A DNA stretch of 64,000 nt. Origin: Hyaloperonospora brassicae (taxonomy: Eukaryota > Oomycota > Peronosporomycetes > Peronosporales > Peronosporaceae). Where the stretch lies: the NCBI GenBank assembly GCA_947650285.1, contig CANTFL010001198.1:654888-718887 (forward strand). The letters run 5' to 3'. The first letter of the stretch is position 1. Every line of letters starts with the position of its first letter. A program made the translations under genes and the position numbers. Of this stretch, positions 3,561-58,551 are shown in pieces. The notes under the pieces are model-generated. The model made no database searches and had not been told where the DNA came from. It worked only from the letters and a program-made list of their open reading frames with translations.

Positions 3561-6264
3561 CATATGGAATCGCCACTTCTGTACATCCGCATGGTATTTT
3601 CTGTAAGTCACGCACGCACACGCGCTAGTGATGATATATAAAGTGATAAATAAAAAAAGTTTATGAAATTTAAGCGCAAAAAGTTTACGCAGAGGTTACC
3701 CCACAACTTGGTAGCACAAAATTAGTGGTAGCCCTACCAGCGGCAGAAGCGGCTGAAATTGTCAGCGGTAGAAAATCAGCATTTCGAGAAGGTTAAAACA
3801 ACTCGGCTATTTACTACGCCGGAAGTTGAAAAATGCATGTTAAGTAGACTTCATTGTCTTATTATACTACATGCAAATTGCTAAGCATTAGACGTTTCTT
3901 TTTCTTGATCGATACTGCTAAGCACACTCACCGTAAAGGTTTATCAAACTAGACAGTGAGTTGAATTTACGTAATGTCTTTGCACTCGCACGTCGCCCGC
4001 ATTATCGACATAATGCCTACTTTTATGAATAATGCTGGTATTTTCGACTATATATATTCAGAATTTGCACACATACGATAAATAGTATAAGAAGTATGTA
4101 CATATTTGCATGTGTCAAAAGATGAAAGAGCAAAGGCTGACCGTTTTGGTCACGCATACTATATTGGAATTTCATGCGTGATCCCAGCATCAAACTTTTC
4201 CTGGTAACCCTTCTCTGTCCGGAGCTCATTTTGTATCTTAATTAGAAATTGTAGTTGAATTACTTGTACGGGAAACGAAAAACGATGAACTCCATAAACA
4301 TGAGCATATGAATTGATATACGAGGTGTAAAGTAGAACATAAATGAAAATATATGCTATACGTACAAGCATTCAAAGTGTATGCGGATACCAGTATACTT
4401 CAACGTGCCTATGCATATCAACTTTACTTATTTGATACTTGTAAACACAACATTATGCTCTCTTCTCACCAATAGTCATCGTGCAATAGGAAAAAGGTGC
4501 GTTGTTATTACACGCGTACAACTACGAGGTATTCAATATATCGCATGTAGATCTATGTTCATATTGTAACTTTTATACAACTTAAGCTGTTCCTACTTGA
4601 CACCACGAGAAGTTGTCGCCAGTGCTTTTTCATGGACTATATAGCAGTATAAACACATAGCCAAGTCGATTGTCAATTTTAGATCCTAACAAATTGATAA
4701 AAACTACAAGACGAACAGTAAACGACGACAACAATAGATTAAAGATACCAAAAGATGACAGGCACTTTTTAGTGTTATTGAGAAAATTCTGAGAGACTAA
4801 AAACGAGCTTGACAAGAAAAATTAATATGCTTCACGCAAGGTTCAGGCACTATCGGTATGGTGGATAAAGCATCTGATCTGAACAAAAGCTTCTGATCGT
4901 CATTTATGATAATATGTATTGACGAATTTAAGATCTCGTAACTTAGATGGACAAAGGTTGTGGAAAAGGCAAAAGTCTACATGGTATTTTGAAATTGAGC
5001 AGATGACTGACTGGTTACTTTGATCTTTTATATGATATCTTCTGATGATGTAAAGCCGACGCACCACTTGACGCAGCGTTGACGTTAGAATAATTGAGAT
5101 CAAGCTTACTCTATCGACTAAAACTCGAACAACTAAATGAAGTTTTTTACATACGATACGCGCGTCTGTTATCGCACGCAACTAAATCGCCACAAGAAGA
5201 AGTAAGGCCACCCTTATCGCCAATACGATTATCATAATATACAAGTGATCGCTTGTAAGTTATTTGGTTTTTGCTTCTTAGTATTCGAAGTAAAGCGTTG
5301 GCAGACAAAGCTTACCATTATTGTGAATAGACACGGTCTTCATATAAGAAAATGCTTCTGATCGTAGTGGTGGTGGAGCTGTCTGGCGATATTTACCTGG
5401 AAGGTGTGGAGATAGATATGACATTGCTACACGTATTATCAGTCATGATACATAAAATTTACGGGATATCGGGTGTCTCGGTTTCCATTAACTACGTATA
5501 GAATATGCTCAAAGATGATAATAATGCGTCCTTGACATAGCCGCCTCTTTGCGTGAGCACATCATACAGACTGTTTCGCGATATGCCTCTATAATAAGTG
5601 AATAATTTTGCTTCGAGGTCGCTCATGGTGAGATAGAAATTGGTCAGGGGGTCATAACAACCGATTCTCCACCCCAGAACTATTTTCTCAAACCTTATCA
5701 AATTACCATAAGCTGTGTATGCATAACAATGACAAGATAATTATCATCAAAATGACCCAAAGTGTTTGTCAAATGTTATAAGACCGTAACATGTACATAA
5801 GGCATTTGTAAACGTGATGTGTAAATTCGTCTATTTTTCATCCATTATTCCTACAGATACTATTTAGGCTGAAACGTTGTGGCACATCTCGATTCAAAAT
5901 TGCTGTGCATTAGAAATTAACAAAAATAAAATACGAGTACCCTACATAGGACATTTATGCCACGCGGTCCTTCAGATCACCCGGGGGTGATCTGCGATTA
6001 CGGTTAAACTGTTGCAACTACTAAAATAATCCAAAACTTCAGTACGCTATAAAGCTTTAGGCCAAAAGGGCCATCAGTTACTCGATAAGCCACCCCTTTT
6101 TGGTTGTTCGTCTGTTCATTGGCCCATCCCGGCGATCTGTAACCTAAGCACCCACCGCGAATTTCGATCCAAGTGCATCCCGTTCCCAACGCCAGTGCAT
6201 TACCACATATAGTCCACATTGAAGCATACACGACATCAAGATCACATATATGAAACATGGATGC
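3561..6264. other. AT-rich gene-free stretch
   Basis: No gene could be supported. Several short open frames (60-93 codons) occur on both strands but have random composition, no shared motif and no intron signals that would join them. Confidence 0.5.
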
Positions 6265-19017: not shown

Positions 19018-19022
19018 ATCCG

Positions 19023-19410
19023 TGTAACGGGGCAGCCCGTTACATGATATTGTCACTTAAGGAAAGTGACAATAAAGAATATAAGATGGATATTCTTTAA
19101 ACAATATCACCAAAGTGGTGATATTGAAGGGTCGACCAAAGGGTCTGTTCATTGGTTGATATCGTGATGATATCAACCCACCAATCGCCGCAAGACGCGC
19201 GCAATGAGTGGTGACGAGACGTCACCATACATGCAGTTATATTAGTATAATTGAATTAAGTCAAACGAAGAGACAGTAGTTTAAAGACTTAATTTATTAA
19301 TATAACAGTTCTACTTTTACCCTACCTACGCTTCCTCGCTCGCCACGTGTACGTCCGTCGGGGCACCCAAATCCCTTGCGTTAAGTTACGCAAGGGTGTG
19401 CCCCGTTACA
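19023..19410 (+). repeat. 5' LTR of element 1
   Basis: 388 bp, TGTAACGGGG...GTGCCCCGTTACA, ending in TG..CA. The LTR is itself a row of hairpins: TGTAACGGG/CCCGTTACA at the tip, ATTGTCACTT/AAGTGACAAT, GAATAT/ATATTC, AATATCAC/GTGATATT, GGTTGATATC/GATATCAACC, and CCCTTGCG/CGCAAGGG near the end. Confidence 0.96.
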
Positions 19411-19412
19411 CC

Positions 19413-19420
19413 TGGTAGCA
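19413..19420 (+). other. Primer binding site (initiator Met tRNA type)
   Basis: TGGTAGCA begins two bases after the LTR end. It complements the 3' end ...TGCTACCA of eukaryotic initiator methionine tRNAs, a common primer of Ty3/gypsy and Ty1 elements. Only eight bases match clearly. Confidence 0.7.
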
Positions 19421-19454
19421 CTTTGTAGTCCTTCCAAGGACCACATCATCCAAC

Positions 19455-20609
19455 ATGAACATGTTGGATGAAGAAGACACCTTTCACGCCACGCGTGAAG
19501 GGTTTACCCATTTGAGTGACATCGAATGGGGTGCGGTAGAACGAATGAGTTCTACCGTAGGCGAACTCGTCGTCAGCACCATGTTGGAGTCTCTAGACAG
19601 AGACCAACAACATGCTGCTATCGCCAAGTTCATTCACAATGAACTTGCTCTCGAGAGGGAGAAAGTAGCCTTGCTTCACCAGCAAGGCTCTCAACAGGCC
19701 GAGCAGTTGAGAGAACTCGGTGCTCAACAGACGGAGCTGTTGAGACAGCAGCAATTCCATGCTGCTGTGGGCGGGACGGCGCATGCGCGTCGTCCCGAAG
19801 TGATGAAAGTCGACATCTCCAAGTACAGTGGAGTCCCGGAGGACTCCCTGTTACTATGGTTTGTCGAACTCGACAGAGCCCTAAGGGCTCGTCGCGTCGA
19901 AGATGAGCAAATGAAACTCACATTTGCTCAGACCCACTTGGCAGGGCGTGCCAAAACTTGGTCCCTGGGACTCGAGAGTAGCGACCCAAATGTGTTTAGG
20001 TCGCTAGATGACTTCAAGTCCCGGCTCAGACAAACGTTTGAGCCGCCACGTGCTGAGTTCAGGGCTCGTTCAGAGCTCCTGAAACTCAAGCAGGGTAAGC
20101 GTGATGTGCACGCTTACGCACAACATATACGACTCCTTGCGAGTAGTATAACTGCAAACCCAGTTCATGAACACACGTTGATTACGGTGTTCATGCAAGG
20201 GCTCGCAGAAGGGCCCGTCAGGAGCCACCTGTTCCGCCTTGAGCTGAATACGCTTGAAGAAGCGATATCAGCCGCGGAACAGGAAGACTTTAGCATGAGA
20301 CAGGCTCATGCTAGCTCAAACTCTTACCGTCCACCGAGACGACAAGAGATCGGAGGTCCAGAACCAATGGACCTCCGCTATGTTGAGAGCGAGAGACCTC
20401 GCTCTTCAAACAACAAGCGATTGCAGAGGTGCAATCGCTGTCAGAAGTTAGGGCACTACGCATACGAGTGTAGTGCTCCGCGCCCAGTACCAAACAGTAC
20501 TGAGCGAAATGGACGACCATTCGCCAGAAAGGGCAATGGGCGTGGGTCCAGCGCTGTTGCGAAGCCGCAACAGCGAGACGGGCCATCAAAAAATGGTCGG
20601 GGTCAGTAG
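19455..20609 (+). CDS. gag: Gag polyprotein of element 1
   Basis: Intact 384-residue Gag that forms the virus-like particle and binds the RNA. The ATG at 19455 is the first after the PBS. An N-terminal Q/E-rich helical region (about residues 60-105) is followed by a retrotransposon Gag (capsid) domain near 120-270 (LLLWFVELDRALRA, LAGRAKTWSLGLES, SRLRQTFEPP). A zinc knuckle CX2CX4HX4C (CNRCQKLGHYAYEC) lies at about 327-340, and a basic Gly/Arg-rich tail follows. Its stop codon (20,607-20,609) lies inside the stem of the frameshift signal. The two other copies in the window have the same length frame but with nonsense codons. Confidence 0.93.
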   Translation: MNMLDEEDTFHATREGFTHLSDIEWGAVERMSSTVGELVVSTMLESLDRDQQHAAIAKFIHNELALEREKVALLHQQGSQQAEQLRELGAQQTELLRQQQFHAAVGGTAHARRPEVMKVDISKYSGVPEDSLLLWFVELDRALRARRVEDEQMKLTFAQTHLAGRAKTWSLGLESSDPNVFRSLDDFKSRLRQTFEPPRAEFRARSELLKLKQGKRDVHAYAQHIRLLASSITANPVHEHTLITVFMQGLAEGPVRSHLFRLELNTLEEAISAAEQEDFSMRQAHASSNSYRPPRRQEIGGPEPMDLRYVESERPRSSNNKRLQRCNRCQKLGHYAYECSAPRPVPNSTERNGRPFARKGNGRGSSAVAKPQQRDGPSKNGRGQ

Positions 20610-20630
20610 GGGCGGAGCGCCCTACTGATC
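20588..20630 (+). promoter_or_regulatory. -1 programmed frameshift signal between gag and pol
   Basis: The heptamer A AAA AAT (20,588-20,594) is in the correct phase of the gag frame (TCA AAA AAT). After a 6-nt spacer (GGTCGG) an 11-bp stem follows: GGTCAGTAGGG (20,601-20,611) with CCCTACTGATC (20,620-20,630), loop GCGGAGCG. The pol frame is -1 relative to gag and is open across the site. Heptamer, spacer and stem are identical in elements 2 (52,089) and 3 (59,687). Canonical eukaryotic/retroviral signals have this geometry. Confidence 0.85.
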
Positions 20631-22084
20631 CAGCAACCTCAAGAGAATTTGCAAACCTCTTGACGAAAGTTGCTCCAGATACACAATCATTGTGTGTCTC
20701 TGCACCTGGTGATGACGTTTCGCTCATCACCTTGAAGTTGGAAGCGACAAATGACTTGTCGCTTCGTGCCCTAGTAGACTGTGGGGCGTCGAACAACTTT
20801 GTTCGTCGCCAGTCACTAGAGGGTCGTAGGCTCAAGTTCGTTGAGCGCGACATTCCCCTCACAAGGATGACGGTGCGCCTTGCAACAGGCGCATCGATAA
20901 CCGTTGAGAAACGTGTAGTAGGAATCCACTACACGTTAGAGGGCGAGCAGTACGATGATGATTTCATCGTACTAGATCTGGATGACAAATTTGATGTCAT
21001 CCTGGGATTACCTTGGCTCAGAAAATACGAGCCAAGGGTGAGCTGGCAGCATCGATCCGTGAAGATGCCTGCTGCTTGTTCATCAGATGGCCATCTGATG
21101 AACATCTTGGAGCGTCCACAAGCGTGTGGATGTTCTGCGAGTGAGTGCGATGGCCTCACTTGCGGTACGGTCGTTAGCACGACTGCACAAGGTCACAGTG
21201 TAGTTGATCACTACACTGTGGAGCAAGCTCCCGGCGGCTGTACAGAAGTACAGGCTGCGCCGAAGGTCCACCACTCGAATAAGTCGAGTGGACTGGGACA
21301 TGGATGCATGCCTAGCGGGCAGCATCTTAGAAGAAAGAAGTCTGTTGCCCCCAAGGGGCAACATGAAAATCCTAGGTCGACTGGAGAGTCGACCGTAGAG
21401 GATCGGTTCCTGACTGTGGTTGCACAGCCACAGTCGGAAGACGTCGAGGGAATAAGTCCCCACGTACTTGAGGAAGGAATTCCTCAAGAGTCGCTTGCTG
21501 AGGGATTAGGCCCTCAGCAACCTGTGGAAGCAAGTTCCCAGGAAGAAACCGAGACGTTGAACGTCTTGGTTAATGACGGATCAAGCGTAGGCGCTTATAC
21601 GCTTGATCTGATTGTGCCTCCGAAGTTGACTTCGGAGATAACTCAGTTGCCAACGCTAGAACCGAAACGGTTCTTGCGTGATCTGCGTAGTGGCAAAGTC
21701 AAGCAGATCTGCATACTCGTCACAGAGGACGAGTATGTGACCGACATTCGGTCGGCAACAGTATTTGCTGAGAACGAACGGGTTCTCAGCAGCTCATCGA
21801 TGGACGAAAGTGTCCTCGATGAGAAGACTCGGATTGAGCGATACGCGTCCCAATCCTGGGAGTCACTTCAGGCAAATCCTTTGTATAAGGATTTGATCGA
21901 ATTCAGGGATGTGTTCCCTGAATCCGTACCTTGCGAGTTGCCTAAGGACAAAGGCACTCGACACGAGATCGAGCTCAAACCGGGCTCGAAATACTGTGTC
22001 ATGAAGCAGTGGCCACTGCCTCGTGAACAAGTGATAGCGATCGACAAGTTCTTTGCCGATCGCTTATTGCAGCGGGCCATGTGA
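20597..22084 (+). CDS. pol: Pol, first part: protease and start of RT (element 1)
   Basis: Frame -1 to gag, entered by frameshifting; no ATG of its own is needed. The aspartic protease active site reads ALVDCGASNNFV (DCGA instead of the common D[ST]GA) with the partner motif DVILGLPWL about 75 residues later. A long hydrophilic linker (about 200 residues, rich in S, E and Q) leads to the RT N-terminus (YKDLIEFRDVFPE, KGTRHEIELKPG, then PLPREQVIAIDKFFAD). The frame ends at a TGA (22,082) caused by a shift near 22,066: in the other copies the same place reads on through GHVR. A compensating shift near 22,106 restores the frame of the next segment. Confidence 0.85.
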   Translation, partial: SGSVGAERPTDPATSREFANLLTKVAPDTQSLCVSAPGDDVSLITLKLEATNDLSLRALVDCGASNNFVRRQSLEGRRLKFVERDIPLTRMTVRLATGASITVEKRVVGIHYTLEGEQYDDDFIVLDLDDKFDVILGLPWLRKYEPRVSWQHRSVKMPAACSSDGHLMNILERPQACGCSASECDGLTCGTVVSTTAQGHSVVDHYTVEQAPGGCTEVQAAPKVHHSNKSSGLGHGCMPSGQHLRRKKSVAPKGQHENPRSTGESTVEDRFLTVVAQPQSEDVEGISPHVLEEGIPQESLAEGLGPQQPVEASSQEETETLNVLVNDGSSVGAYTLDLIVPPKLTSEITQLPTLEPKRFLRDLRSGKVKQICILVTEDEYVTDIRSATVFAENERVLSSSSMDESVLDEKTRIERYASQSWESLQANPLYKDLIEFRDVFPESVPCELPKDKGTRHEIELKPGSKYCVMKQWPLPREQVIAIDKFFADRLLQRAM

Positions 22085-22123
22085 GGGAATCAACATCCCC
22101 TCACAGTCTCTCCGACCTTCTGT

Positions 22124-24766
22124 GTGCGAAAGGCCACAGGAGGGTGGCGGATAGTGCACGCATTCAACAAGTTGAATGCTGCAACGGTACCGGCTCAGAC
22201 GCCGATACCGAGGAAGGACGTCATCATAGATGGTATGTCAAAGAGTACCATCTTTTCGTCCATGGATCTGATGGATGGATTCTATCAGATCCTGATGCGT
22301 GAACGGGACGTCCCGTTCACAGCAGTGAGTACCCCCAGCGGGATGCTGTGGGAGTGGCTAGTGATGCCACAGGGGCTGAGTAATGCCCCTGCAACATTCA
22401 ACAGATGTGTAACAAATCTGTTGAGACCGGTGCGAGACTTCGCACCGAGTTACTTCGACGATGTGTTCGTCCATAGCCGGGCTATGGACGGGAAGACGGA
22501 CGTTGAAGTTCACAGAACTCACGTTCGTCAGGTTCTTCAACTTATGCGCAAGCATAAGTTGTACGCCAACCTCAAGAAGTGTATATTCGCGGCTAGCGAA
22601 ATACCACTTCTTGGGTGCATCGTGGGGAAACACGGCGTACGCCCTGATCCCGAAAAGATCAAGGCGATCACCGACTGGCCAGTGCCAGTCGATGTCAAGG
22701 GACTTCGAAAGTTCCTTGGTCTTGCGGCGTACTTGCACAAGTACTCGCGCAACTACGCCGAGATGACGGTACATCTTTCTTGCTTGCTCAAGAAAAATGT
22801 CAAGTGGTCATGGAACGCTGAGTGCCAGCGTTCCTTTGAAGGTATCAAGCAAAGCTTGATGCAATCGCCGATCTTGGCGATTGCAGATCAGGACAGACCA
22901 TTTCATGTGGTCTGTGACGCCAGCGATTTCGCAATCGGCTGTGCGTTAATGCAGTTCGATGCAGATGGCGCGGAGCGCGTCATCTGTTATCAATCGCGTC
23001 AGCTGCAAGCAGCTGAGCGTAATTACCCAGTGCATGACAAGGAACTCCTTGCCATGAAATACGCACTGGCTAAATTTCGCGTCTATCTCTTGGGAGATAG
23101 ACCGTTTGTTGTCTACACGGACCATGCGTCATTACGCACGGCCGTAAACAGCCCACACCTCTCGCAAAGAATGGCGAGGTGGCTGTCTTTCTTCGCGGAG
23201 TATAACTTCTCCGTGGAGTATAAACCGGGACGACTCAATGTCGTCGCGGATGCTCTTTCGCGCCGGCCCGATTTCGAGCCGGACGCGCAATCCAACAGTG
23301 AGGACAAGCCCACTGTTGCGACACTGTCAGTCAGTGTCCCGTCGTCAAGTTTACTTGACGACGTACGAAAGGCATACGCGGAAGATAAGGATCTTCTGCG
23401 ATTGATGGATCATCTGGTGAATCCATCCAGTAAATCCATGAGGGATTTACCGGCTTTGTACCGATCCTCATCGGATCGGTATAGTACACGCAACGGATTG
23501 CTGTACTATACAGCTGTTGCCGACGACACGCCTCGTGTCGTCGTACCCGCTCATCATGATTTGCGATTGCGCATCATGTATGAGTGTCACGATGCCCCAA
23601 CAAGCGGCCATCGTGGTAGAGAAAAGACTTACCTCACGGTAAGTCGCGACTTTTACTGGCCCCGCCAGTATCAGTTTGTTCGCAAGTACATCCGTGCTTG
23701 CGAAGTATGTCAACGGGTGAAGCCTAGTCCTTCATCCCGTGCGCCATTGCAGCCTCTGCCTGTTCCGACAGAGTGCTGGCAGTCCGTTTCAATGGACTTC
23801 GTCTTCGGGTTTCCCGAAGACGCTCACAAGAATAATGGTATTCTTGTGTTTGTGGACCGATTCAGCAAGATGGTCCATCTTGCTGCTGTCCCTGAGTCAA
23901 TCAAGGCTCAAGGTTGTGCTCGTGTCTTTCTAGACACGGTCTTTAGACTCCACGGGTTACCCCGTGAACTCGTATCCGACCGTGACCCTCGGTTCACGGC
24001 GGAATTTTGGCAAACCGTGTTCCGTACTCTCGGAACACGATTGAAGATGTCCACTTCTGACCATCCAGAAACAGATGGTCAGACGGAACGTGCGAACCGT
24101 GTCCTCGAAGAGATTCTTCGAGGATATGTCCACTCGTTTCCGAGTTGGAGCGAATTCCTACCCATGGTGGAATTCGCCATCAATAATTCGGTGCATGCTT
24201 CAACACAGCACACACCGTTTTACGTGAATGGCCTACGCCATCCACGTGTGCCCACCCTTCTAGAGTGTGACTCTTGGATAAGGGGGGGAGGGACTCGCTC
24301 GAGCAAAAACCGTTTTGGCTCTTGCTCATCACGTGTCGACGCAAACGTCGTCACGTATGATGCCGATGTCGATCAAGTCGACATCGATGAAGAAGATCAT
24401 CTCAATAATAGCGAAGACGCTATTATTGATTCGGATGATGATGACGATGCTGGTATATTCAGCATCGCCAACGATTATGCCAGCGAGGAAGAAGACAACC
24501 TCGCTGAAGAAGAGAGCAATCTCTTAGCAGTGCGCACGAAGCGCACTGCTAGACAAAACAAAGAGTCAGCAGAGAACTTCCTGCTGACTCGAGAAGCGGT
24601 AGTCCGTTTCGTTCAGGACTCCATCGCAAATGCGGTGGACCATCAGAAACGGAACGCAGACAAGAATGGAAGAGCAAATGTTCTTTCATTTAAGGTTAAC
24701 GACCTAGTACTACTGTCTACGGTAAACTTACCTGGAAATGCAGTCACTAGTGTCGGCAGTAGTTAA
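22124..24766 (+). CDS. pol: Pol, second part: RT, RNase H, integrase (element 1)
   Basis: Same frame as the first part, reopened after a second 1-nt shift; 880 codons with no initiator ATG needed. RT: FSSMDLMDGFYQI, MPQGLSNAPATF and the catalytic SYFDDVFV. RNase H: CDASD, HDKELLA, YTDHASL and VADALSRR give the D-E-D-D set. Integrase: H2C2 zinc site (HRGREKTY ... CEVCQ), then catalytic MDFVFG, SDRDPRF and QTERANRVLEE (D, D, E). An acidic insert (DSDDDDDAG) follows. The segment ends at a TAA (24,764) where elements 2 and 3 have TTA, so the GPF module and chromodomain are cut off. Enzymes would act on the RNA/cDNA in particles and integrate it. Confidence 0.88.
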   Translation: MRKATGGWRIVHAFNKLNAATVPAQTPIPRKDVIIDGMSKSTIFSSMDLMDGFYQILMRERDVPFTAVSTPSGMLWEWLVMPQGLSNAPATFNRCVTNLLRPVRDFAPSYFDDVFVHSRAMDGKTDVEVHRTHVRQVLQLMRKHKLYANLKKCIFAASEIPLLGCIVGKHGVRPDPEKIKAITDWPVPVDVKGLRKFLGLAAYLHKYSRNYAEMTVHLSCLLKKNVKWSWNAECQRSFEGIKQSLMQSPILAIADQDRPFHVVCDASDFAIGCALMQFDADGAERVICYQSRQLQAAERNYPVHDKELLAMKYALAKFRVYLLGDRPFVVYTDHASLRTAVNSPHLSQRMARWLSFFAEYNFSVEYKPGRLNVVADALSRRPDFEPDAQSNSEDKPTVATLSVSVPSSSLLDDVRKAYAEDKDLLRLMDHLVNPSSKSMRDLPALYRSSSDRYSTRNGLLYYTAVADDTPRVVVPAHHDLRLRIMYECHDAPTSGHRGREKTYLTVSRDFYWPRQYQFVRKYIRACEVCQRVKPSPSSRAPLQPLPVPTECWQSVSMDFVFGFPEDAHKNNGILVFVDRFSKMVHLAAVPESIKAQGCARVFLDTVFRLHGLPRELVSDRDPRFTAEFWQTVFRTLGTRLKMSTSDHPETDGQTERANRVLEEILRGYVHSFPSWSEFLPMVEFAINNSVHASTQHTPFYVNGLRHPRVPTLLECDSWIRGGGTRSSKNRFGSCSSRVDANVVTYDADVDQVDIDEEDHLNNSEDAIIDSDDDDDAGIFSIANDYASEEEDNLAEEESNLLAVRTKRTARQNKESAENFLLTREAVVRFVQDSIANAVDHQKRNADKNGRANVLSFKVNDLVLLSTVNLPGNAVTSVGSS

Positions 24767-25509
24767 CTACTGCCGAAATACATTGGGCCATTTCGAGTGT
24801 TGCACCGCAAGGGCAATGCATACACGATCGAATTGCCACGTAGGATGCGCACGCATCCTACGTTTTACGTGGGGAGGCTTAGGTCGTACTGTCAGTACGA
24901 GCCTTCTTCTTCCGATGAAGATAGCCCCCACGTTCAAGAACATCCATCAAGTTCTTGCGTTCGCGCTCCAGACGATCCGTCTGGTCGCGCAGATTATGAT
25001 ACCTCGGAACTCAACCGAGATATCTCTCCGCGAGCTGTCGCCAGCTCGCCGTAAAGGGAGCGGACATCCCGCTCGACCTGAAGCTGCGCTGTGGCATAAT
25101 CGGCGCGATCCCTCGCCCGATCAGCCTCGTGATCCTTGCGGTTCTTCCGCACGGTATCGGTCAAAGCGTAGCGCCGGTCGCGCTCGTGCTTCAAGTCATC
25201 GCGCAATTCATCGATTGCGCGATCCATCTCGTAAGGGTCGAGATGGTGGGCCTGGGGTCTCTGGAGGAGGTCTTTCCTCCTCCACCACATCCTTTGGTGG
25301 ATGCTCACGGTGATCAACGCTTTCTAGTGGAGCGTATCTTGAATCACCGTGACGATTCAGGATCAAGGACGAGCTACCTCGTCCAGTGGCGGGGGTATCC
25401 ACCCTCTTGGAACAGCTGGGAGCCCCGCTCTCAGCTGTTAATGGATGTTGAAGGTCTCGTCCACCAGTATGACGAGACCCATCCGATGAGTCCTGTGGCC
25501 CATCGGTAA
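24767..25509 (+). pseudogene. pol: Pol tail of element 1: GPF module and chromodomain, frame-broken
   Basis: After the nonsense codon the frame continues with KYIGPFRVLHRKGN (GPY/F module of integrase) and GRLRSYCQYE. Two 1-nt shifts (about 25,000 and 25,250, relative to element 2) move the frame before a clear chromodomain at about 25,310-25,490: FLVERILNHRDD, TSYLVQWRGYPPSWNSWEP, then VHQYDETH. The chromodomain identifies the element as a chromovirus; such domains direct integration to modified chromatin. In element 2 this tail is one open frame. Confidence 0.85.
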
Positions 25510-26485
25510 ACACGCGCCCTAGGCGCTTGTAGACGGATTGCAAGTTTGCAATCGCGTCACGCATCTCGTCCGAGAGATGTGCCCTTCCCCAGGGCGAATT
25601 TAGGGAGTACACATCCCTATGTGCACGCTGCGAGTTGTCAACACAACTCGCACAAGGGTCTCCCCATGTGAGGCAAGGAATGCCTGCCTCACTCGATAAA
25701 CAATGCAACCGGTACCTAGCACCGGTTGGCGTTCGCCGTTCGAACCTGAGGCGTGTTGCCTCAAGTTTCTTGAGCCACCCTTCTCGTCCAAAATTCTTTA
25801 CGTTTTGGACGAACGCGTTCCACGCAGCCAAAAGCGATGTTTTGTCACGCTTTTGGTTGCTATTGTACCATCGATGTCTAAGGAAGACATCGAGATAAAA
25901 GTCTTCTTCAGCGCGAAAGTTCTTCGCGCTGGGATCCAAGCCGTGAAGCTCAGTCGCATCGAATAAGGGTATTCGATGGTGTTGGCCTGTCTCGTGAGAC
26001 AGGCTATTGATGAGTTGTTCGGGCAAACGCCACGGCTTCAACTCATCACGCTTCACAGTGGTACCCTTGTCGGTACCACGGCTCCCAGATTGACGACGGC
26101 TCGCGCCATCGTCATCACGCTCGTGCGAAGACGCACGAGCCGGCGGTGGTGAAGAATAGAACTCACCACCCTGATCATCGTCATCACTGCCGAACAGACT
26201 GTGATGCGAATCACGAGTCCGTTCGTTCGGCAGTGGCCTTGGCGAATACTGAGGCGTCGCCGGTGAGCGAGACGCCTCTGGAGCATTGCCCGAGTCAGAC
26301 ACGTCTGACTCGCCAGAGTAGATGACCTCCACATCGGGGTCATCGTGCGCACGCGGCGTGATACCGCGTGCACCTGCAGCACCTGTTGCTGCAGGCGAAG
26401 AAGGGGCGGCAGACGACGAAGCGTCTGCCGCAGAGGCTTGCACAGCACCAGGCTGTGTGGGTCTTGAGTCACCTCGCATAGACAT
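25208..26485 (-). CDS. Antisense gene of element 1, unknown function
   Basis: A 425-residue frame on the strand opposite gag/pol, starting at ATG 26,485 just inside the 3' LTR and overlapping the chromodomain code at its end. I do not recognise the protein. Residues 1-140 are low-complexity S/A/P/D-rich with acidic patches. About 145-310 look ordered: DELKPWRLPEQLINSL, FDATELHGLDPSAKNF, YLDVFLRHRWYNSNQ, WNAFVQNVKNFGREGW, and a cysteine group (CLSSEAGIPCLTWGDPCASC). The 3' end is shifted by one base near 25,255; a further 100 codons of coiled-coil type (DRAIDELRDDLKHERDR, then DRADYATAQL) are open to 24,994. Element 2 has the same gene intact here. It may be expressed from the 3' LTR or nearby sequence. 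Confidence 0.7.
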   Translation of the reverse strand: MSMRGDSRPTQPGAVQASAADASSSAAPSSPAATGAAGARGITPRAHDDPDVEVIYSGESDVSDSGNAPEASRSPATPQYSPRPLPNERTRDSHHSLFGSDDDDQGGEFYSSPPPARASSHERDDDGASRRQSGSRGTDKGTTVKRDELKPWRLPEQLINSLSHETGQHHRIPLFDATELHGLDPSAKNFRAEEDFYLDVFLRHRWYNSNQKRDKTSLLAAWNAFVQNVKNFGREGWLKKLEATRLRFERRTPTGARYRLHCLSSEAGIPCLTWGDPCASCVDNSQRAHRDVYSLNSPWGRAHLSDEMRDAIANLQSVYKRLGRVFTDGPQDSSDGSRHTGGRDLQHPLTAESGAPSCSKRVDTPATGRGSSSLILNRHGDSRYAPLESVDHREHPPKDVVEEERPPPETPGPPSRPLRDGSRNR

Positions 26486-26603
26486 GTTAACTATGCGAGG
26501 TCAAGCGGAAAGTGAGTGGAACGGACCAAACAAGTGCTCCCTGTCCCAATGGTGGCCAACGGGTGGCCTCCATATTTCGATAGTCACACGGTGACTATCA
26601 GTT
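25510..26603 (+). other. Region between pol and polypurine tract, antisense coding
   Basis: On the sense strand this 1.1-kb stretch has no long frame with protein character; short frames are shadows of the antisense gene. It is absent from minimal Ty3/gypsy elements, so it is an added module. Confidence 0.7.
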
Positions 26604-26612
26604 AAGGGGGGG
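26604..26612 (+). other. Polypurine tract of element 1
   Basis: AAGGGGGGG ends three bases before the 3' LTR (spacer TGA). It primes plus-strand DNA synthesis. Element 2 has AGGAAAGGGGGG at the same place. Confidence 0.85.
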
Positions 26613-26615
26613 TGA

Positions 26616-27003
26616 TGTAACGGGGCAGCCCGTTACATGATATTGTCACTTAAGGAAAGTGACAATAAAGAATATAAGATGGATATTCTTTAAACAATAT
26701 CACCAAAGTGGTGATATTGAAGGGTCGACCAAAGGGTCTGTTCATTGGTTGATATCGTGATGATATCAACCCACCAATCGCCGCAAGACGCGCGCAATGA
26801 GTGGTGACGAGACGTCACCATACATGCAGTTATATTAGTATAATTGAATTAAGTCAAACGAAGAGACAGTAGTTTAAAGACTTAATTTATTAATATAACA
26901 GTTCTACTTTTACCCTACCTACGCTTCCTCGCTCGCCACGTGTACGTCCGTCGGGGCACCCAAATCCCTTGCGTTAAGTTACGCAAGGGTGTGCCCCGTT
27001 ACA
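26616..27003 (+). repeat. 3' LTR of element 1
   Basis: 388 bp, identical to the 5' LTR in a base-by-base reading, followed by the target duplication ATCCG. Confidence 0.96.
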
Positions 27004-28224
27004 ATCCGCCTTAAGAGCGAAAATCAATTTGATTGGTGGAGCGCGTATGGAGATGGGCCCGTAAGAACGATTGATGGGATTAGACAACTTAGTGACACAA
27101 ACTGACTGTGGACATTTATGCAGATTGATCTACCTTACGGTCATGAAGGAATATAGTCAAGGATCGACGATTGACCGATCACGATCCGCGATCAAAGGCT
27201 TGGATCACCAAGTTACAAGGACCGGATCACTAGAGAGCTGAACATCATCTGGAATACAGAATCGATAACACTAATGGAAGATAGGTGCACGTGAAAGCAG
27301 GCAATAAGAGTGGATATTCAAGATCATCATACATCGCGATCTCAGAGGTGACGATCATTCGACAGTGTATGCTCGATCAATGACTCGAGAGATTGATCAC
27401 GATCCACCCTGGGCGTGTAACGTTTGATTGTGTGGACACATAATTAGTGTGGATCACATAATTGGTTTGGATCACATACTTGGTGTGGATCACATACCGC
27501 GATCCACTACCCGACCGATCCACCCCGTAGCGATCCACTATGAAGCGATCCACTATCGAGGGATCCGCCATCCGAGTATCTGCTGTAGATCACGTGATGC
27601 AAGAGGTGAATTACATAGACATGCGATAGGAAACAGTGGTCTAGTGAACAGATAGGCATACTCATAGGTTTTGGATTTGGTTGGTTAACATTAAACAGAA
27701 TTGAATTTGCAACAAAAGACACACGTCAACTTCTCCCGGGCAGGAACTTTGCCTTCCCGTTGAATAGAGAGCGACCTGTGTCTACACAAACTTCGCCTTT
27801 GGATTTTTTGGCCAGGCGGAGCATCAGTTCTCACCCCCAACTGCGATCGGACGCAGGGAACCTAACGGTTCAGATTAAAGATCGCGAGACGGCTCAAGTG
27901 GTCAGAAGGCTCGCAGATCGAGCATCAACTTTGGACACAGGATACTCTAGGAGATCGCCCAAGTATACGCGCGATCGAGTGAATAATTCCCACTCGATCC
28001 ACCCCACATTTGACCGAGTAAATAAATTTCCACCCGATCAACCCCTATTTTCAAAACGGTCAAGTTCAGGTTCAGCTTAAGTCCACCAAGAAGAGCGCAC
28101 CCGCCACACCGACGGGTACACAAGGTAAGTAAGAAGACACAGAGCACAAAATCGGGGTACCCCCTCCATTAGTAGTGTCGTCAGGCGCCAGTGAAGAGTC
28201 GGGGTCACACGAAATTGTGATCAC
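27004..28224 (+). repeat. Left arm of large inverted repeat (family B LTR-like)
   Basis: About 1,221 bp that reappear as the reverse complement at 32,441-33,662 with only a handful of differences (for example GTCGTCAGGCGCC versus GTCGTCCGGGCGCC, and GGGTACCCCC versus GGGTGCCCCC). The inner half resembles the family B LTR-like sequences at 31.2-31.8 and 45.2-45.8 kb (AACAGAATT, CGATCGGACGCAG, GATCGCGAGACGGCTCAAGT). It contains several GGATCACATA/GATCCACTA repeats at 27,440-27,570 and a GGTAAGTAAG splice-donor-like site at 28,124. A TGTAACG at 27,416 and a CGCCA at 28,190 could be LTR ends, but the homology between arms goes beyond both. Confidence 0.88.
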
Positions 28225-50521: not shown

Positions 50522-50911
50522 TGTAACGGGGCAGCCCGTTACATGAAATTGTCACTTTAAGGAAAGTGACAACAAAGAATATAAAGATGGATATTCTTTG
50601 AACAATATCACCAAAGTGGTGATATTGAAGGGTCGACCAAAGGGTCTGTTCATTGGTTGATATCGTGATGATATCAACCCACCAATCGCCGCAAGACGCG
50701 CGCAATGAGTGGTGACGAGACGTCACCATACATGCAGTTATATTAGTATAATTGAATTAAGTCAAACGAAGAGACAGTAGTTTAAAGACTTAATTTATTA
50801 ATATAACAGTTCTACTTTTACCCTACCTACGCTTCCTCGCTTGCCACGTGTACGTCTGTCGGGGCACCCAAAACCCTTGCGTTAAGTTACGCAAGGGTGT
50901 GCCCCGTTACA
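50522..50911 (+). repeat. 5' LTR of element 2
   Basis: 390 bp, TGTAACGGGG...GCCCCGTTACA; differs from the LTRs of element 1 by some scattered substitutions and two single-base insertions. PBS TGGTAGCA follows at 50,914. Confidence 0.95.
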
Positions 50912-50955
50912 CCTGGTAGCACTTTGTAGTCCTTCCAAGGACCACATCATCCAAC

Positions 50956-52110
50956 ATGAACATGTTGGATGAAGAAGACACCTTTCACGCCACGCGTGAA
51001 GGGTTTACCCATTTGAGTGACATCGAATGGGGTGCGGTAGAACGAATGAGTTCTACCGTAGGCGAACTCGTCGTCAGCACCATGTTGGAGTCTCTAGACA
51101 TAGACCAACAACATGCCGCTATCGCCAAGTTCATTCAGAATGAACTTGCTCTCGAGAGGGAGAGAGTAGCCTTGCTTCACCAGCAAGGCTCTCAACAGGC
51201 CGAGCAGTTGAGATAACTCGGTGCTCAACAGACGGAGCTGTTGAGACAGCAGCAATTCCATGCTGCTGTGGGCGGGACGGCACATGCGCGTCGTCCCGAG
51301 GTCATGAAGGTTGACATGTCAAAGTACAGAGGAGTCCCGGAAGACTCCCTGTTACTATGGTTTGTCGAACTCGACAGAGCCCTAAGGGCTCGTCTCGTCG
51401 AAGATGAGCAAATGCAACTCACATTTGCTCAAACCCACTTGGCAGGTCGTGCCAAAACTTGGTCTCTGGGGCTTGAGAGTAGCGACCCACATGTGTTTAG
51501 GTCGCTAGATGACTTCAAGTTTCGGCTCAGACAAACGTTTGAGCCGCCACGGGCTGAGTTCAGGGCTCGTTCAGAGCTCCTGAAACTCAAGCAGGGTAAG
51601 CGTGATGTGCACGCTTACGCTCAACATATACAACTCCTTGCGAGTAGTATAACTGCCAACCCAGTACATGAACACATGTTGATTACGGTGTTCATGCAAG
51701 GGGTCGTGGAAGAGCCCGTCAGGAGCCACCTGTTCCGCCTTGAGCTGAATACGCTTGGAGAATCAATATCAGCCGCGGAACCGGAAGACTTTAGCATGAG
51801 ACAGGCTCATGCTAGCTCAAACTCTTACCGTCCACCGAGACGACAAGAGATCGGAGGTCCAGAACCAATGGACCTCCGCTATGTTGAGAGCGAGAGACAT
51901 CGCTCTTCAAACAACAAGCGATCGCAGAGGTGAAATCGTTGTCAGAAGTTAGGGCACTACGCATACGAGTGTAGTGCTCCACGCCCAGTACCAAACAGTA
52001 CTGAGCGAAATGGACGACCATTCGCCAAGAAGGGCAATGGGCGTGGGTCCAGCGCTGTTGCGAAGCCGCAACAGCGAGACGGACCATCAAAAAATGGTCG
52101 GGGTCAGTAG
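50956..52110 (+). pseudogene. gag: Gag of element 2 with two nonsense codons
   Basis: Colinear with the intact gag of element 1 (385 codons, no indel) but with TAA at 51,214-51,216 (AGA in element 1) and TGA at 51,931-51,933, which replaces the first Cys of the zinc knuckle. The first nonsense codon is shared with element 3. The frameshift heptamer is preserved at 52,089-52,095 with its stem. Confidence 0.9.
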
Positions 52111-55100
52111 GGGCGGAGCGCCCTACTGATCCAGCAACCTCAAGAGAATTTGCAAATCTCTTGACGAAAGTTGCTCCAGATACACAATCATTGTGTGTCT
52201 CTGCACCTGGTGATAACATTTCAATCTTCACGCTTGAAGTTGGAAGCGACAAAATATTTGTCGCTTCGTGCCCTAGTAGACTGTGGGGCGTCGAACAACT
52301 TTGTTCGACGCCAGTCACTAGAGGGTCGTAGGCTCAAGTTCGTTGAGCGCGACATTCCCCCTCACAAGGATGACGGTGCGCCTTGCAACAGGCGCATCGA
52401 TAACCGTTGAGAAACGTGTAGTAGGAATCCACTACACGTTGGAGGGCGAACAGTACGATGATGACTTCATCGTACTAGATCTGGATGACAAATTTGATGT
52501 CATCCTGGGATTACCTTGGCTCAGAAAGTCCGAGCCAAGGGTGAGCTGGCAGCATCGATCCGTGAAGATGCCTTCCGCTTGTTCATTAGGTGGCCATCTG
52601 ATGAACATCTTGGGGCGTCCACAAGCGTGTGGATGTTCTGCGAGTGAGTGCGATAGCCTCACTTGCGGTACGGTCGTTAGCACGACTGCACAAGATCACA
52701 GTGTAGTTGATCACTACACTGTGGAGCAAGCTCCCGGCGGCTGTACAGAAGTACAGGCTGCGCCGAAGGTCCACCACTCGAATAAGTCGAGTGGACCGGG
52801 ACGTGGATGCATGCCTAGCGGGCAGCATCTTAGACAGAAGAAACCTGTTGCCCCCAAAGGGCAACATGGAAATCCTAGGTCGACTGGAGAGTCGACCGTA
52901 GAGGATCGGTTCCTGACTGTGGTTGCACAGCCACAGTCGGAAGACGTCGAGGGAATAAGTCCCCACGTACTTGAGGAAGGAATTCCTCAAGAGTCGCTTG
53001 CTGAGGGATTAGGCCCTCAGCAACCTGTGGAAGCAAGTTCCCAGGAAGAAACCGAGACGTTGAACGTCTTGGTTGATGACGGATCAAGCGTAGGCGCTTA
53101 TACGCTTGATCTGGTTGTGCCTCCGAAGTTGACTTCGGAGATAACTCAGTTGCCAACGCTAGAACCGAAACGGTTCTTGCGTGATCTGCGTAGTGGCAAA
53201 GTCAAGCAGATCTGCATACTCGTCACAGAGGACGAGTATGTGACCGACATTCGGTCGGCAACAGTATTTGCTGAGAACGAACGGGTTCTCAGCAGCTCAT
53301 CGATGGACGAAAGTGTCCTCGATGAGAAGACTCGGATTGAGCGATACGCGTCCCAATCCTGGGAGTCACTTCAGGCAAATCCTTTGTATAAGGATTTGAT
53401 CGAATTCAGGGATGTGTTCCCTGAATCCGTACCTTGCGAGTTGCCTAAGGACAAAGGCACTCGACACGAGATCGAGCTCAAACCGGGCTCGAAATACTGT
53501 GTCATGAAGCAGTGGCCACTGCCTCGTGAACAAGTGATAGCGATCGACAAGTTCTTTGCTGATTGCTTTGCAGCGGGCCATGTGAGGTAATCAACTTCCT
53601 CCCACGTCTCTCCGACCTTCTGTGTGAGAAAGGCCACAGGAGGATGGCGGATAGTGCACGCATTCAACAAATTGAATGCTGCAACGGTACCGGCTCAGAC
53701 GCCGATACCGAGGAAGGACGTCATCATAGATGGTATGTCAAAGAGTACAATCTTTTCGTCCATGGATCTGATGGATGGATTCTATCAGATCCTGATGCGT
53801 GAACGGGACATCCCGTTCACGGCAGTGAGTACCCCCAGCGGGATGCTGTGGGAGTGGATAGTTATGCCACAGGGGCTGAGCAATGCCCCTGCAACATTCA
53901 ACAGATGTGTCACAAATCTGTTGAGACCGGTGCGGGATTTCGCACCGAGTGACTTCGACGATGTGTTCGTCTATAGCCGGGCTATGGACGGAAAGACGGA
54001 AGTTGAAGTTCACAGAACTCACGTTCTTCGGGTTCTTCAACTTATGCGCAAGCATAAGTTGTACGCCAATCTCAAGAAGTGTATATTCGCGGCTAGCGAA
54101 GTATCACTTGTTGGGTGTATCGTGATTAAACACGGCGTACGCCCTGATCCCGAAAAGATCAAGGCGATCACCTACTGGCCAGTGCCAGTCGATGTCAAGG
54201 GACTAAGGAAGTTCCTTGGTCTAGCGGCAAACTTGCACAAGTACTCGCGAAACTACGCCGAGATGATTGATCATCTTTCTTGTTTACTCAAGAAAACTGT
54301 GAAGTGGTCACGGAACGCTGAGTGCCAGCGTACCTTTGAGGGTATCAAGCAAAGCTTGATGCAATCGCCGATCTTGGCGATTGCAGATCAGGACAGACCA
54401 TTTCATGTGGTCTGTGACGCCAGCGATTTTGCAATCGGCTGTGCGTTAATGCAGTTCGATGCAGATGGCGCGGAGCGCGTCATCTGTTATCAGTCGCGTC
54501 AGCTGCAAGCAGCTGAGCGTAATTAACCAGTGCATGACAAGGAACTCCTTGCCATGAAGTACGCACTGGCTAAGTTTCGCGTCTATCGCTTGGGAGATAG
54601 ACCGTTTGTTGTCTATACGGACCATGCGTCATTACGCACGGCCGTAAACAGTCCACACCTCTCGCAACGAATGGCGAGGTGGATTTCTTTCTTCGCGGAG
54701 TATAACTTCTCCGTGGAGTATAAACCAGGACGACTCAATGTCGTCGCTGATGCACTTTCGCGCCGGCCCGATTTCGAGCCGGACGCACAAATCAACAGTG
54801 AGGATAAGCCCACTGTTGCGACGCTGTCAGTCAGTGTCTCGCGGTCAACATTACTTGAAGACGTACGAAAGGCATACGCGGAAGATAAAGATCTTCTGCG
54901 ATTAATGGATCATCAGGTGAATCCATCCAGTAAATTCATGAGGGATTTACCAGCTTTGTACCGATCCTCATCGGATTGGTACAGTACACGCAACGGATTG
55001 CTGTACTATACAGCTGTTGCCGACGACACGCCTCGTTTCGTCGTACCCGCTCATCATGATTTGCGTTTACGCATCATGTATGAGTGTCACGATGCCCCAA

Positions 55101-57003
55101 CAAGCGGCCATCGTGGTAGAGAAAAGACTTACCTCACGGTAAGTCGTGACTTTTACTGGCCCCGCCAGTATCAGTTTGTTCGCAAGTACATACGTGCTTG
55201 CGAGGTTTGTCAACGGGTGAAGCCTAGTCCTTTATCCCGTGCGCCATTGCAGCCTCTGCCTGTTCCGACAGAGTGCTGGCAGTCCGTTTCAATGGACTTC
55301 GTCTTCGGGAAACCCGAAGACGCTCACAAGAATAATGGTATTCTTGTGTTTGATGACCTTTTTAGCAAGATGGTTCATCTTGCTGCTGTCCCTGAGTCAA
55401 TCAAGGCCCAAGGTTGTGCTCGTGTCTTTCTAGACACGGTCTTTAGACTCCACGGGCTACCCCGTGAACTCGTATCCGACCGTGACCCTCGGTTCACGGC
55501 GGCATTTTGGCAAACCGTGTTCCGTACTCTCGGAACACGATTGAAGATGTACACTCCTGACCATCCAGAAACAGATGGTCAGACGGAACGTGCGAGCCGT
55601 GTCCTCGAAGAGATTCTTCAAAGATATGTCCACTCGTTTTCGAGTTGGAGCGAATTCCTACCCATGGTGGAATTCGCCATCAATAATTCGGTGCATGCTT
55701 CCACACAGCACACACCGTTTTACGTGAATGGCCTACGCCATCCACGAGTGTCCACCCTTATAGAGTGTAACTCTTGGATAAGGGGGGAGGGACTCGCTCG
55801 AGCAAAAACCGTTTTGGCTCTTGCTCATCACGTGTCGACGCAAACGTCGTCACGTATGATGACGATGTCGATCAAGTCGACATCGATGAAGAAGATCATC
55901 TCAATAATAGCGAAGACGCTATTATTGATTCGGATGATGACGATGCTGGTATATTCAGCATCGCCAACGATTATGTCAGCGAGGAAGAAGACAACCTCGC
56001 TGAAGAAGAGAGCAATCTCTTAGCAGTGCGCACGAAGCGCACTGCCAGACAAAACAAAGAGTCAGCAGAGATCTTCCTGCTGACTCGAGAAGCGGTAGTC
56101 CGTTTCGTTCAGGACTCCATCGCAAATGCGGTGGACCGTCAGAAACGGAACGCAGACAAGAATGGAAGAGCAAATGTTCTTTCATTTAATGTTAATGACC
56201 TAGTACTACTGTCTACGGTAAACTTACCTGGAAATGTAGTCACTAATGTCGGCAGTAGTTTACTACTGCCGAAATACATTGGTCCCTTTCGTGTATTGCA
56301 CCGCAAAGGCAATGTATACACGATAGTGTTGCCACGTAGGATGCGCACGCATCCTACGTTTTTCGTGGGGAGGCTTAGGTCGTACTGTCAGTACGAGCCT
56401 TCTTCTTCTGATGAAGATAGCCCCCACGTTCAAGAACATCCATCAAGTTCTTGCGTTCGCGCTCCAGACGATCCTTCTGGCCGCGCAGATTATATAACTC
56501 GGAGCTCAACCGAGAGATCTCTCCGCGAGCTGTCGCCAGCTCGCCGTAAAAGGAGCGGACATCCCGCTCGACCAGAAGCTGCGCTGTGGCATAATCGGCG
56601 CGATCTCTCGCCCGATCAGCCTCGTGATCCTTGCGGTTCTTCCGCACGGTATCGGTCTAAGCGTAGAGCCGGTCGCGCTCGTGCTTCAATTCATCGCGCA
56701 ATTCATCGATTGCGCGATCCATCTCGTAAGGGTCGAGATGGTGGGCCTGGGGTTCTGGAGGAGGTCTTTCCTCCTCCACCACATCCTTTGGTGGATGCTC
56801 ACGGTGATCAACGCTTTCTGGTGGAGCGTATCTTGAATCACCGTGACGATTCAGGATCAAGGACGAGCTACCTCGTCCAGTGGCGGGGGTATCCACCCTC
56901 TTGGAACAGCTGGGAGCCCCGCTCTCAGCTGTTAATGGATGTTGAAGGTCTCGTCCACCAGTATGACGAGACCCATCCGATGAGTCCTGTGGCCCATCGG
57001 TAA
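52111..57003 (+). pseudogene. pol: Pol of element 2, multiply broken
   Basis: Protease region has two single-base insertions (about 52,214-52,232 and 52,358). From 52,343 the frame is open to a TAA at 53,588 (GAA in element 1), then RT to a TAA at 54,524 (TAC in element 1), then RNase H/integrase to a one-base loss in a G run near 55,785. From 55,774 a 409-codon frame gives the acidic linker, GPF module and chromodomain (FLVERILNHRDD, SYLVQWRGYPPSWNSWEP) without break. The RT active site reads DFDD where element 1 has YFDD. Both TAA codons are shared with element 3. Confidence 0.9.
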
Positions 57004-57979: not shown

Positions 57980-58109
57980 GTTAACTATGCGAGGTCAAGC
58001 GGAAAGTGAATGGAACAGACCCAACAAGTGCTCCCTGTCCCAATGGTGGCCAACGGGTGGCCTCCATGTTTTCGATAGTCACACGGTGACTATCAGGAAA
58101 GGGGGGTGA

Positions 58110-58501: not shown

Positions 58502-58551
58502 CCTGGTAGCTCTTTCTATTTCTTCCAGCGACCACAATCACATCATCCATC

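Follow-up and report, generated by a model that had tools for sequence, protein, structure and literature searches.

Why is a retrotransposon of Hyaloperonospora brassicae written almost from end to end as short adjoining hairpins? The initial annotation of the window, which is the whole 64,000-nucleotide stretch of DNA analysed here, offered two answers: a second, structural constraint on the protein code, or a mutational process that makes hairpins. The retrotransposon (element 1) lies at 19,023 to 27,003 and spans 7,981 bp. It is a Ty3/Gypsy element, which fits its LTRs, its 5-bp target duplication and its domain order; such elements are classed as Metaviridae, chromovirus type. The features of element 1 and of two further copies of its family are as follows.

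19,018 to 19,022, no strand: left copy of the target-site duplication (ATCCG, 5 bp), from flank comparison
19,023 to 19,410, plus strand: 5' LTR of 388 bp, starting with TGTAAC and ending with GTTACA, identical to the 3' LTR
19,023 to 27,003, plus strand: element 1, whole; 162 non-overlapping hairpins (arms of at least 6 bp, loop of at most 12) covering 45% of its length
19,455 to 20,609, plus strand: gag, with a zinc-knuckle match below the Pfam cut-off; 18.2 stems per kb (arms of at least 7 bp)
20,660 to 22,084, plus strand: aspartic protease and start of pol; 18.3 stems per kb
21,077 to 21,104, no strand: longest palindrome, 14+14 bp and loopless, from the hairpin listing
22,124 to 24,766, plus strand: reverse transcriptase (RT), RNase H and integrase; 15.9 stems per kb
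22,703 to 22,719, no strand: hairpin that varies among family copies, from a have/lack comparison of 23 copies
24,402 to 24,429, no strand: hairpin with four compensated pair changes between copy L057 and element 1, from copy alignment
25,208 to 26,485, minus strand: antisense gene, 425 aa; 18.8 stems per kb
26,616 to 27,003, plus strand: 3' LTR, identical to the 5' LTR
27,004 to 27,008, no strand: right copy of the target-site duplication (ATCCG, 5 bp), from flank comparison
50,522 to 58,501, plus strand: element 2, same family, 96.5% identical to element 1, from alignment
58,110 to 63,982, plus strand: element 3, same family, 92.9% identical, from alignment; the match stops near the window's end

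The two LTRs of element 1 were identical over 388 bp in a pairwise comparison, and the outer 12 bp of the 5' LTR form an inverted repeat. Pfam matches confirmed the order protease, RT, RNase H and integrase. An SH3-like domain and a chromodomain after the integrase were found by Pfam in element 2 (55,774 to 57,003); domain scoring of element 1 stopped at the frame end at 24,766, and the chromodomain evidence is that of element 2. The antisense gene product matched no Pfam family and has protein relatives in other downy mildews. Element 1 showed no match in Rfam. The genome contains more than 900 full or partial copies of its family, and one LTR is common to elements 2 and 3. Close protein relatives were found in Peronospora, Phytophthora and Globisporangium. 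The viral contigs and phages searched held no relatives, and the DNA comparisons were thus made within this one genome.

Perfect stems (arms of at least 7 bp, loop of at most 12) numbered 20, 19, 17, 19, 15, 15, 17 and 18 per kb in successive bins across 19 to 27 kb, whereas elsewhere, away from the three copies of the element, 1-kb bins contained 0 to 4. The 162 hairpins correspond to about 40 arms per kb; the rough count of 25 to 35 in the initial annotation was thus correct about the excess and slightly low in its size. When one mismatch was allowed, 153 hairpins covered 46.7% of element 1, compared with 0.5 to 2.7% in five base shuffles. The inverted repeats cited as examples were all found where they had been placed, and the loopless 26-bp palindrome at 21,078 to 21,103 was exact and reached 28 bp when extended. 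Hairpins had been described in gag, pol and the antisense gene alike, and a comparison with codon-shuffled versions had been proposed. In this comparison (100 shuffles each), the 15.9 to 18.8 stems per kb of the four reading frames fell to 1.5 in gag, 1.4 in protease/pol, 0.9 in RT-integrase and 1.2 in the antisense gene (z of 16 to 26). Hairpins filled coding and non-coding parts alike, the non-coding parts being nearly as dense. The PIG-T, MFS and golgin host genes, said to lack the excess, showed stem densities equal to those of their own codon-shuffle controls. Hairpin density was also not raised in two distant Gypsy families of the same genome (26% amino-acid identity), which lay at background, or in 12 Copia loci of that genome (arms of at least 8 bp). 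Ordinary Gypsy elements are thus not equally dense, and the excess over chance and over ordinary Gypsy that lay behind the two proposed answers is confirmed. Among the Copia loci, a local TGACGTCA array gave 3 to 6 stems in one bin (L032 to L035), and the end of L042 carried three overlapping stems.

Hairpin tiling is a trait of the clade with family-specific stem lengths, which is new beyond the initial annotation. The preferred stem size was about 8 to 10 bp in element 1 and, among its sister families in this genome, 8 to 9 bp in F43 and F48 and 5 bp in F45. In F45, arms of 5 bp numbered 80 (15 expected) and arms of 6 bp 11 (3 expected), and extension beyond 5 bp occurred in 13 of 93 cases, below the assumed fraction of 0.25 (p 0.007). 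Loops of 3 nt were the commonest in this family, and the base adjoining the loop was a pyrimidine in 77% of cases, compared with 53% by chance. The 8-bp arms of F43 had an outer G in 72% of cases versus 32%. F45 was rejected as a hairpin-free relative, because the threshold of arms of at least 7 bp had missed its 5-bp stems. Within the family of element 1, most surviving stems keep the same centres. Element 1 had 0 to 3 hairpin centres in common with each of the other families (0.5 to 0.8 expected), and the sister families F43 and F48 shared 4 (0.2 expected). Conservation of stems between families, which are about 60% identical, was rejected because a relative's pairing barely exceeded the expectation from site identity.

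The lineage that replicates has kept its stems, and older copies have hardly done so. Along the branch leading to the young copies, 0 of 308 third codon positions in stems and 18 of 602 outside them had changed. The tally of changes left out sites with disagreement among the four reference copies or with less than 90% uniformity among the young ones. Changes private to nine older copies (L053 not counted) showed nearly equal rates in stems and elsewhere, and these changes combine decay after insertion with some earlier replication, as in L056 and L057, where third positions changed most. Taken singly, element 3 had a lower rate in stems (21/972 versus 73/2,012). Double changes were scored in 18 diverged copies; the young copies were set aside, as were L052, of which 1.2 kb aligned, and L044 and L065, which barely differ from element 1. 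In copies at most 13% diverged, 22 of 28 distinct double changes stayed Watson-Crick paired (expected fraction 0.45, p 0.0003), whereas in copies 15 to 22% diverged 23 of 51 were paired, showing no compensation. No double change in a stem pair occurred on the branch to the young copies. Four compensated doubles fell in the single L057 hairpin (permutation P 0.0014, uncorrected for the six copies tested); the remaining five copies had at most one compensated change per hairpin.

The pairing chemistry bears on how the stems arise. Perfect 5-bp hairpins of F45 numbered 97 (21 expected), those with one G-T 61 (50 expected) and those with one A-C 55 (40 expected); hairpins with one other mismatch were also above expectation (247 versus 165). 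In the four frames of element 1, 65 hairpins had one G-T and 50 one A-C (p 0.19). Gag alone leans to G-T over A-C (14 versus 5), and its coding strand gains more folding over shuffles than its complement does. In all four families (element 1, F43, F48 and F45), both strands folded better than codon shuffles to about the same degree, with the smallest gain in F48 (5 to 8%). Given that the complementary strand folds to a similar degree and that G-T has no clear advantage over A-C, simple selection on the sense RNA was rejected as the only cause. Arm GC was 0.538 in element 1 (0.528 in chance hairpins), 0.554 in F45 (0.520, with energy per pair unchanged) and 0.695 in F43 (0.605, p 0.001), where the chance baselines for GC and energy used arms of at least 6 bp while some families were scored at arms of at least 7 bp. 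Energy per pair was lower than in chance hairpins in element 1, F43 and F48, though their own arms are longer. Element 1 and F45 give no support to selection for stability, but the arms of F43 are GC-enriched.

The lack of a clear G-T preference, the equal folding of both strands and the absence of GC enrichment in element 1 and F45 fit a copying of arms better than selection for stable RNA, and the data tilt toward a hairpin-making mutational process over structural constraint, which retains part of the probability. We tentatively favour, at somewhat less than an even chance, the reading that the element's own reverse transcriptase, by switching template over short distances, creates the inverted repeats and maintains their perfect pairing. 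During replication the strand would fold back on itself, and the enzyme, presumably this one rather than another polymerase of the replication cycle, would make each arm a copy of its partner. Which of the copied versions survive would be decided by selection on the encoded proteins, and arm length may be the distance that the enzyme of a given family runs before it returns. Such redundancy could let one arm template the correction of the other, with a hypothetical benefit to the element. A stronger version is doubtful: that the clade stores much of its sequence twice as perfect hairpin arms, with the RT correcting one arm against its partner in every round of replication, so that a self-templated error-correcting code with a word length of 5, 8 or 9 bp set by the enzyme overlies the protein genes.

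Template switching has been reported to create perfect hairpins and to maintain them with compensation at several bases, for which an excess of G-C and U-A is expected (PMC8794818, in the part drawn on here). The likeness extends to perfect stems and compensated changes, and several compensations within one hairpin were seen in one copy of the six tested. However, the events in that account are inferred to be occasional and belong to DNA replication of RNA genes, whereas here a whole element would be affected with a family-specific tract length. Pair orientation in element 1 was G-C over C-G (348:305) and A-T over T-A (293:257), the latter contrary to the expected U-A excess. Arm lengths are also narrower than free copying would obviously give. 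Individual hairpins, such as that at 22,703 to 22,719, have clustered changes in one arm that match the other, but broken stems showed no overall excess of one-sided changes, the split between arms being approximately binomial in our own comparison. This result, the confinement of multi-pair compensation to one copy of six, the missing compensation in the 15 to 22% diverged copies, the lack of double changes on the branch to the young copies, the GC-rich arms of F43, the lower energy per pair in element 1, F43 and F48, and the raised count of other mismatches in F45 all count against copying.

The main rival, considered less likely, is selection for self-folding of both RNA strands, which would block sense-antisense annealing into double-stranded RNA and let the element escape RNA silencing. 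Since pairing would be needed on both strands, this also predicts no wobble pairs. The near-equal folding of the strands in four families agrees with it, as does the antisense open reading frame that each of the four carries at the 3' end of pol. Folding energy exceeded codon shuffles by 38 to 50% in element 1, by 5 to 17% in pol stretches of F43, F48 and F45, and by about zero in the two distant Gypsy families and host genes. The Copia control for folding used three 735-nt pieces, one with five stops in the frame used. The strong constraint on stems in the replicating lineage and the small RNAs of both orientations reported along Gypsy elements of Phytophthora infestans (PMC3522703, as far as excerpted) are also favourable. 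The codon phase that pairs wobble positions together is under-used in element 1 (0.19 versus 0.36, arms of at least 8 bp), which fits building by synonymous choice; protein-filtered copying of arms predicts the same. Against this rival, the arms of element 1 and F45 lack GC enrichment, and the F45 stems are weak (-0.79 kcal/mol per bp) yet sharply sized; F45 has the antisense frame but short stems only. The antisense gene as the cause of the hairpins was rejected because F45 carries such a frame too. Opening 16-nt windows in the first 1,200 nt of each frame cost 0.6 to 1.4 kcal/mol more than in codon shuffles, and the medians (5.8 to 6.8) were close to those of two host genes (5.6 to 6.0). Shielding of the target from small RNAs was rejected on this modest difference.

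It is rather improbable that the hairpins are dispersed binding sites, with the Gag of each family recognising a particular hairpin geometry on the sense RNA in order to package and compact it. The family-specific stem length, loop length and end base suit this idea, and loops of element 1 had more A than T (about 248 versus 187, p 0.004). Hairpins of gag-pol were more stable on the sense strand in 27 cases and on the other in 14, which was not significant (p 0.15). However, no loop motif was apparent by eye among the listed loops, loop energy, overall folding and wobble pairs gave no significant sense preference, and hairpins are no sparser in the antisense gene than in gag and pol, and nearly as frequent in non-coding parts. 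A structure at the DNA level, in which the palindromes would form small cruciforms or fold single-stranded cDNA into hairpins, is very unlikely; strand symmetry and the lack of wobble preference accord with it, but cruciforms would need arms longer than the 5 bp of F45, and in older integrated copies stems are lost at nearly the rate at which other sites change. Chance, base composition or an ordinary Gypsy feature has a negligible probability, since the codon-shuffle comparison of the element 1 frames refutes it and the two distant Gypsy families, the Copia loci and the three host genes also lie at background.

Element 1 shares LTRs, the 5-bp target duplication, Ty3-type gag, protease, RT, RNase H and integrase with Ty3/Gypsy chromodomain elements and differs by its hairpins throughout, which the two distant Gypsy families here lack. 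Genome-scale ordered RNA structure likewise has hundreds of consecutive stem-loops in coding sequence with pairings poorly shared among relatives; its folding excess is 15% in SARS-CoV-2 and 23.4% in the highest vertebrate RNA virus, single regions being higher (PMC7642675, in the portion considered), and the 38 to 50% of element 1 is only roughly comparable because the shuffle differs. Such structure may also shield RNA from host sensing (PMC3950689). Here, by contrast, the stems are perfect, short, of family-specific length and without clear wobble preference. Ty3 and Ty1 genomic RNAs are also structured LTR retroelement RNAs, but as a mosaic in which stable, highly structured regions make up at most 30% of the RNA (PMC11381356, in the excerpt used). 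Local hairpins tied to small RNAs occur in maize transposons, where regions fold like pre-miRNAs; the part of PMC10760457 used here describes no tiling by perfect 5 to 10 bp stems. No published description of a hairpin-tiled retroelement was among the matches listed, in a coverage outside which most subscription papers and all bioRxiv preprints lie.

Perfect, covarying hairpins are usually read as evidence of selected RNA structure, and those of element 1 come without a clear wobble preference of the kind expected from selection on the sense RNA. Should copying be their source, palindromes can be both written and proofread by a polymerase throughout a genome, and covariation by itself is no proof of RNA function; copying by the element's own enzyme would be a new way of shaping a genome. 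If selection makes them, it would exceed that in the structured viral genomes covered in the cited part of PMC7642675. Families with 5-, 8- and 9-bp stems share one genome. Of 23 copies, 8 carry the hairpin at 22,703 to 22,719 with no more than one pair missing and 14 lack it; element 1 is without it. Elements 1 and 2 differ there by three clustered changes in one arm, which are synonymous by codon reading (Leu-Arg).

Element 1 (19,023 to 27,003) contained 15 to 20 perfect stems per kb (arms of ≥7, loops of ≤12), compared with 0 to 4 in each 1-kb bin that lay outside the element copies. The inverted repeats cited in the initial annotation were found in the element, and the high repeat density that it described was confirmed. 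Codon shuffles of element 1, which keep the protein and codon usage, gave only 0.9 to 1.5 stems per kb, and the z values over these shuffles were 16 to 26 for arms of ≥7 and 27 to 38 for arms of ≥9. As had also been claimed, the neighboring genes lack the trait: all three host genes (PIG-T, MFS, and golgin) were at the level of their own codon-shuffle controls. In the proposed comparison with ordinary Gypsy elements, two distant families (L046 and L047, 26% amino-acid identity) showed only 0 to 1 stems per kb. The non-coding parts of element 1 were nearly as dense (22 hairpins, 14.9 per kb) as the coding parts (113 hairpins, 17.4 per kb). In 351-nt windows, element 1 had a folding energy 38 to 50% above that of codon shuffles, and the excess for the host genes was −0.6 to 1.9%. 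In addition, the first kb of three Copia relatives (L032, L034, and L035) carried TGACGTCA palindromes arranged in tandem, separated by 3- to 6-nt spacers, and a fourth relative, L033, had a similar first-kb stem count.

Among the papers listed by literature searches for a hairpin-tiled element of this type, none described one. The closest described phenomenon is ordered RNA structure on a genome scale, for which the values given in PMC7642675 are a folding excess of 15% for SARS-CoV-2 and a maximum of 23.4% among vertebrate RNA viruses. The excess of element 1 is well beyond these viral values, although the two studies used different shuffles. Ty3 and Ty1 RNAs are described in PMC11381356 as structural mosaics.

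The stems are maintained in the replicating lineage. Along the branch leading to the young copies, 1 of 933 sites changed in stems (defined in other copies) versus 22 of 1,985 elsewhere, and at third codon positions the counts were 0 of 308 and 18 of 602, respectively (P = 0.0007). Among 30 young copies, shared variants were more strongly depleted in stems relative to other sites (5 of 1,471 versus 52 of 3,521) than singletons were (46 versus 151; P = 0.015). The private changes of nine older copies, when summed, were nearly equal in stems (571 of 8,339, 6.8%) and elsewhere (1,302 of 17,563, 7.4%); element 3 alone showed a larger gap. Pairing was kept in 22 of 28 distinct double changes among 13 copies of ≤13% divergence (0.45 expected, P = 0.0003) and in 23 of 51 among five copies of 15 to 22% divergence. 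The remaining stems of the latter five copies lay mostly at the stem centers of element 1 (71 of 78). These copy tests mostly covered 1.2- to 5-kb stretches around the reverse transcriptase (RT), their counts do not represent independent events because the copies are related, and all family and copy comparisons were made within one genome.

Hairpin tiling is a clade trait, with stem length differing by family. The related families F43 (L043 and L064) and F48 (L048 and L061), at about 60% amino-acid identity, showed 4.7 to 8.5 stems per kb, and F45 (L045, L068, and L069; 60 to 67% identity) showed 0 to 1.5. Despite the few stems counted, F45 folded 10 to 16% above shuffles on both strands of the pol ORF, because its size class is 5-bp stems: with loops of 3 to 7, there were 80 stems of exactly 5 bp versus 15 expected, 11 of 6 bp versus 3, and 2 longer. 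The commonest stem length was 8 bp in F43 (17 versus 0.7), 8 to 9 bp in F48, and 8 to 10 bp in element 1. F45 hairpins most often had 3-nt loops, and 77% of these hairpins, versus 53% by chance, had a pyrimidine next to the loop; an outer-end G was present in 72% of F43 hairpins (32% by chance). When the RT tree was rooted with the distant families, the first split was that of F45 (support, 0.83), followed by that of F43/F48 from element 1.

The favored explanation is that the stems were made by copying one arm from the other. Such copying would give Watson-Crick identity regardless of stem stability, would act on both strands and in every region, and would operate only during replication; RT would be the natural suspect, and we infer that it is the copying enzyme. 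Perfect stems in F45 numbered 97 versus 21 expected, while those with one G-T (61 versus 50) or one A-C (55 versus 40) were near expectation and near each other; element 1 had 65 and 50 such stems, respectively (P = 0.19). Both strands folded about equally in all four families, arm GC content matched that of chance hairpins in element 1 and F45 and differed in F43, and sharp size classes reached down to weak 5-bp stems. Copy L057 had four pairs compensated in one hairpin (P = 0.0014), resembling the template-switching footprint as described in PMC8794818, which includes compensations of this kind. Several results do not fit arm copying: one-arm clusters of changes showed no overall excess, multi-pair compensation was seen in only one of the six copies tested, and double changes in stem pairs were absent from the branch leading to the young copies. 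Arm lengths were also narrow, with F45 stems passing 5 bp less often than chance, and stem codons had the same amino-acid identity as other codons in the closest relatives and up to 8 points less in some distant ones. The main rival, selection for folding of both strands to avoid double-stranded RNA, is a less likely explanation. Both models predict the codon-phase avoidance seen in element 1, which was slight in F45 (29 of 93 fell in the disfavored phase). A simple RNA-stability reading is disfavored because of the wobble, strand, GC, and size-class results.

Element 1 is an LTR retrotransposon: it has two identical LTRs of 388 bp, a 5-bp target duplication, and Pfam matches to Ty3-type gag, aspartic protease, RT, RNase H, and integrase, with the gag zinc knuckle matching below the cut-off. 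A 44-base RT stretch of the element, allowing up to 3 mismatches, occurred 936 times (478 + 458) in the 100.56-Mb assembly. Identity of the host PIG-T was 78% with the Hyaloperonospora arabidopsidis protein and 77% with that of Peronospora matthiolae, which makes a downy mildew the likely host. Element 2 has additional Pfam matches to an SH3-like domain and a chromodomain; these lie in a downstream ORF, and the pol frame of element 1 stops at 24,766 (24,767 to 25,207 compared with 55,774 to 57,003). Elements 2 and 3 have a single LTR in common (58,110 to 58,501; LTR-internal-LTR-internal), likely a recombination product. An antisense ORF was found in element 1:

25,208 to 26,485, minus strand, antisense ORF at the 3' end of pol

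An antisense ORF of 425 to 505 aa occupies this position in all four families, read in F43, F48, and F45 from the joined stretches L043+L072, L048+L073, and L074+L045. A Pfam scan of the element 1 antisense protein gave no family, and its protein relatives were in Hyaloperonospora brassicae and Peronospora matthiolae. At the F48 locus L073 (joined-stretch positions 4,709 to 5,926), the antisense protein is 87% identical to the element 1 type, and an inverted insertion of that type likely adjoins the F48 copy there.
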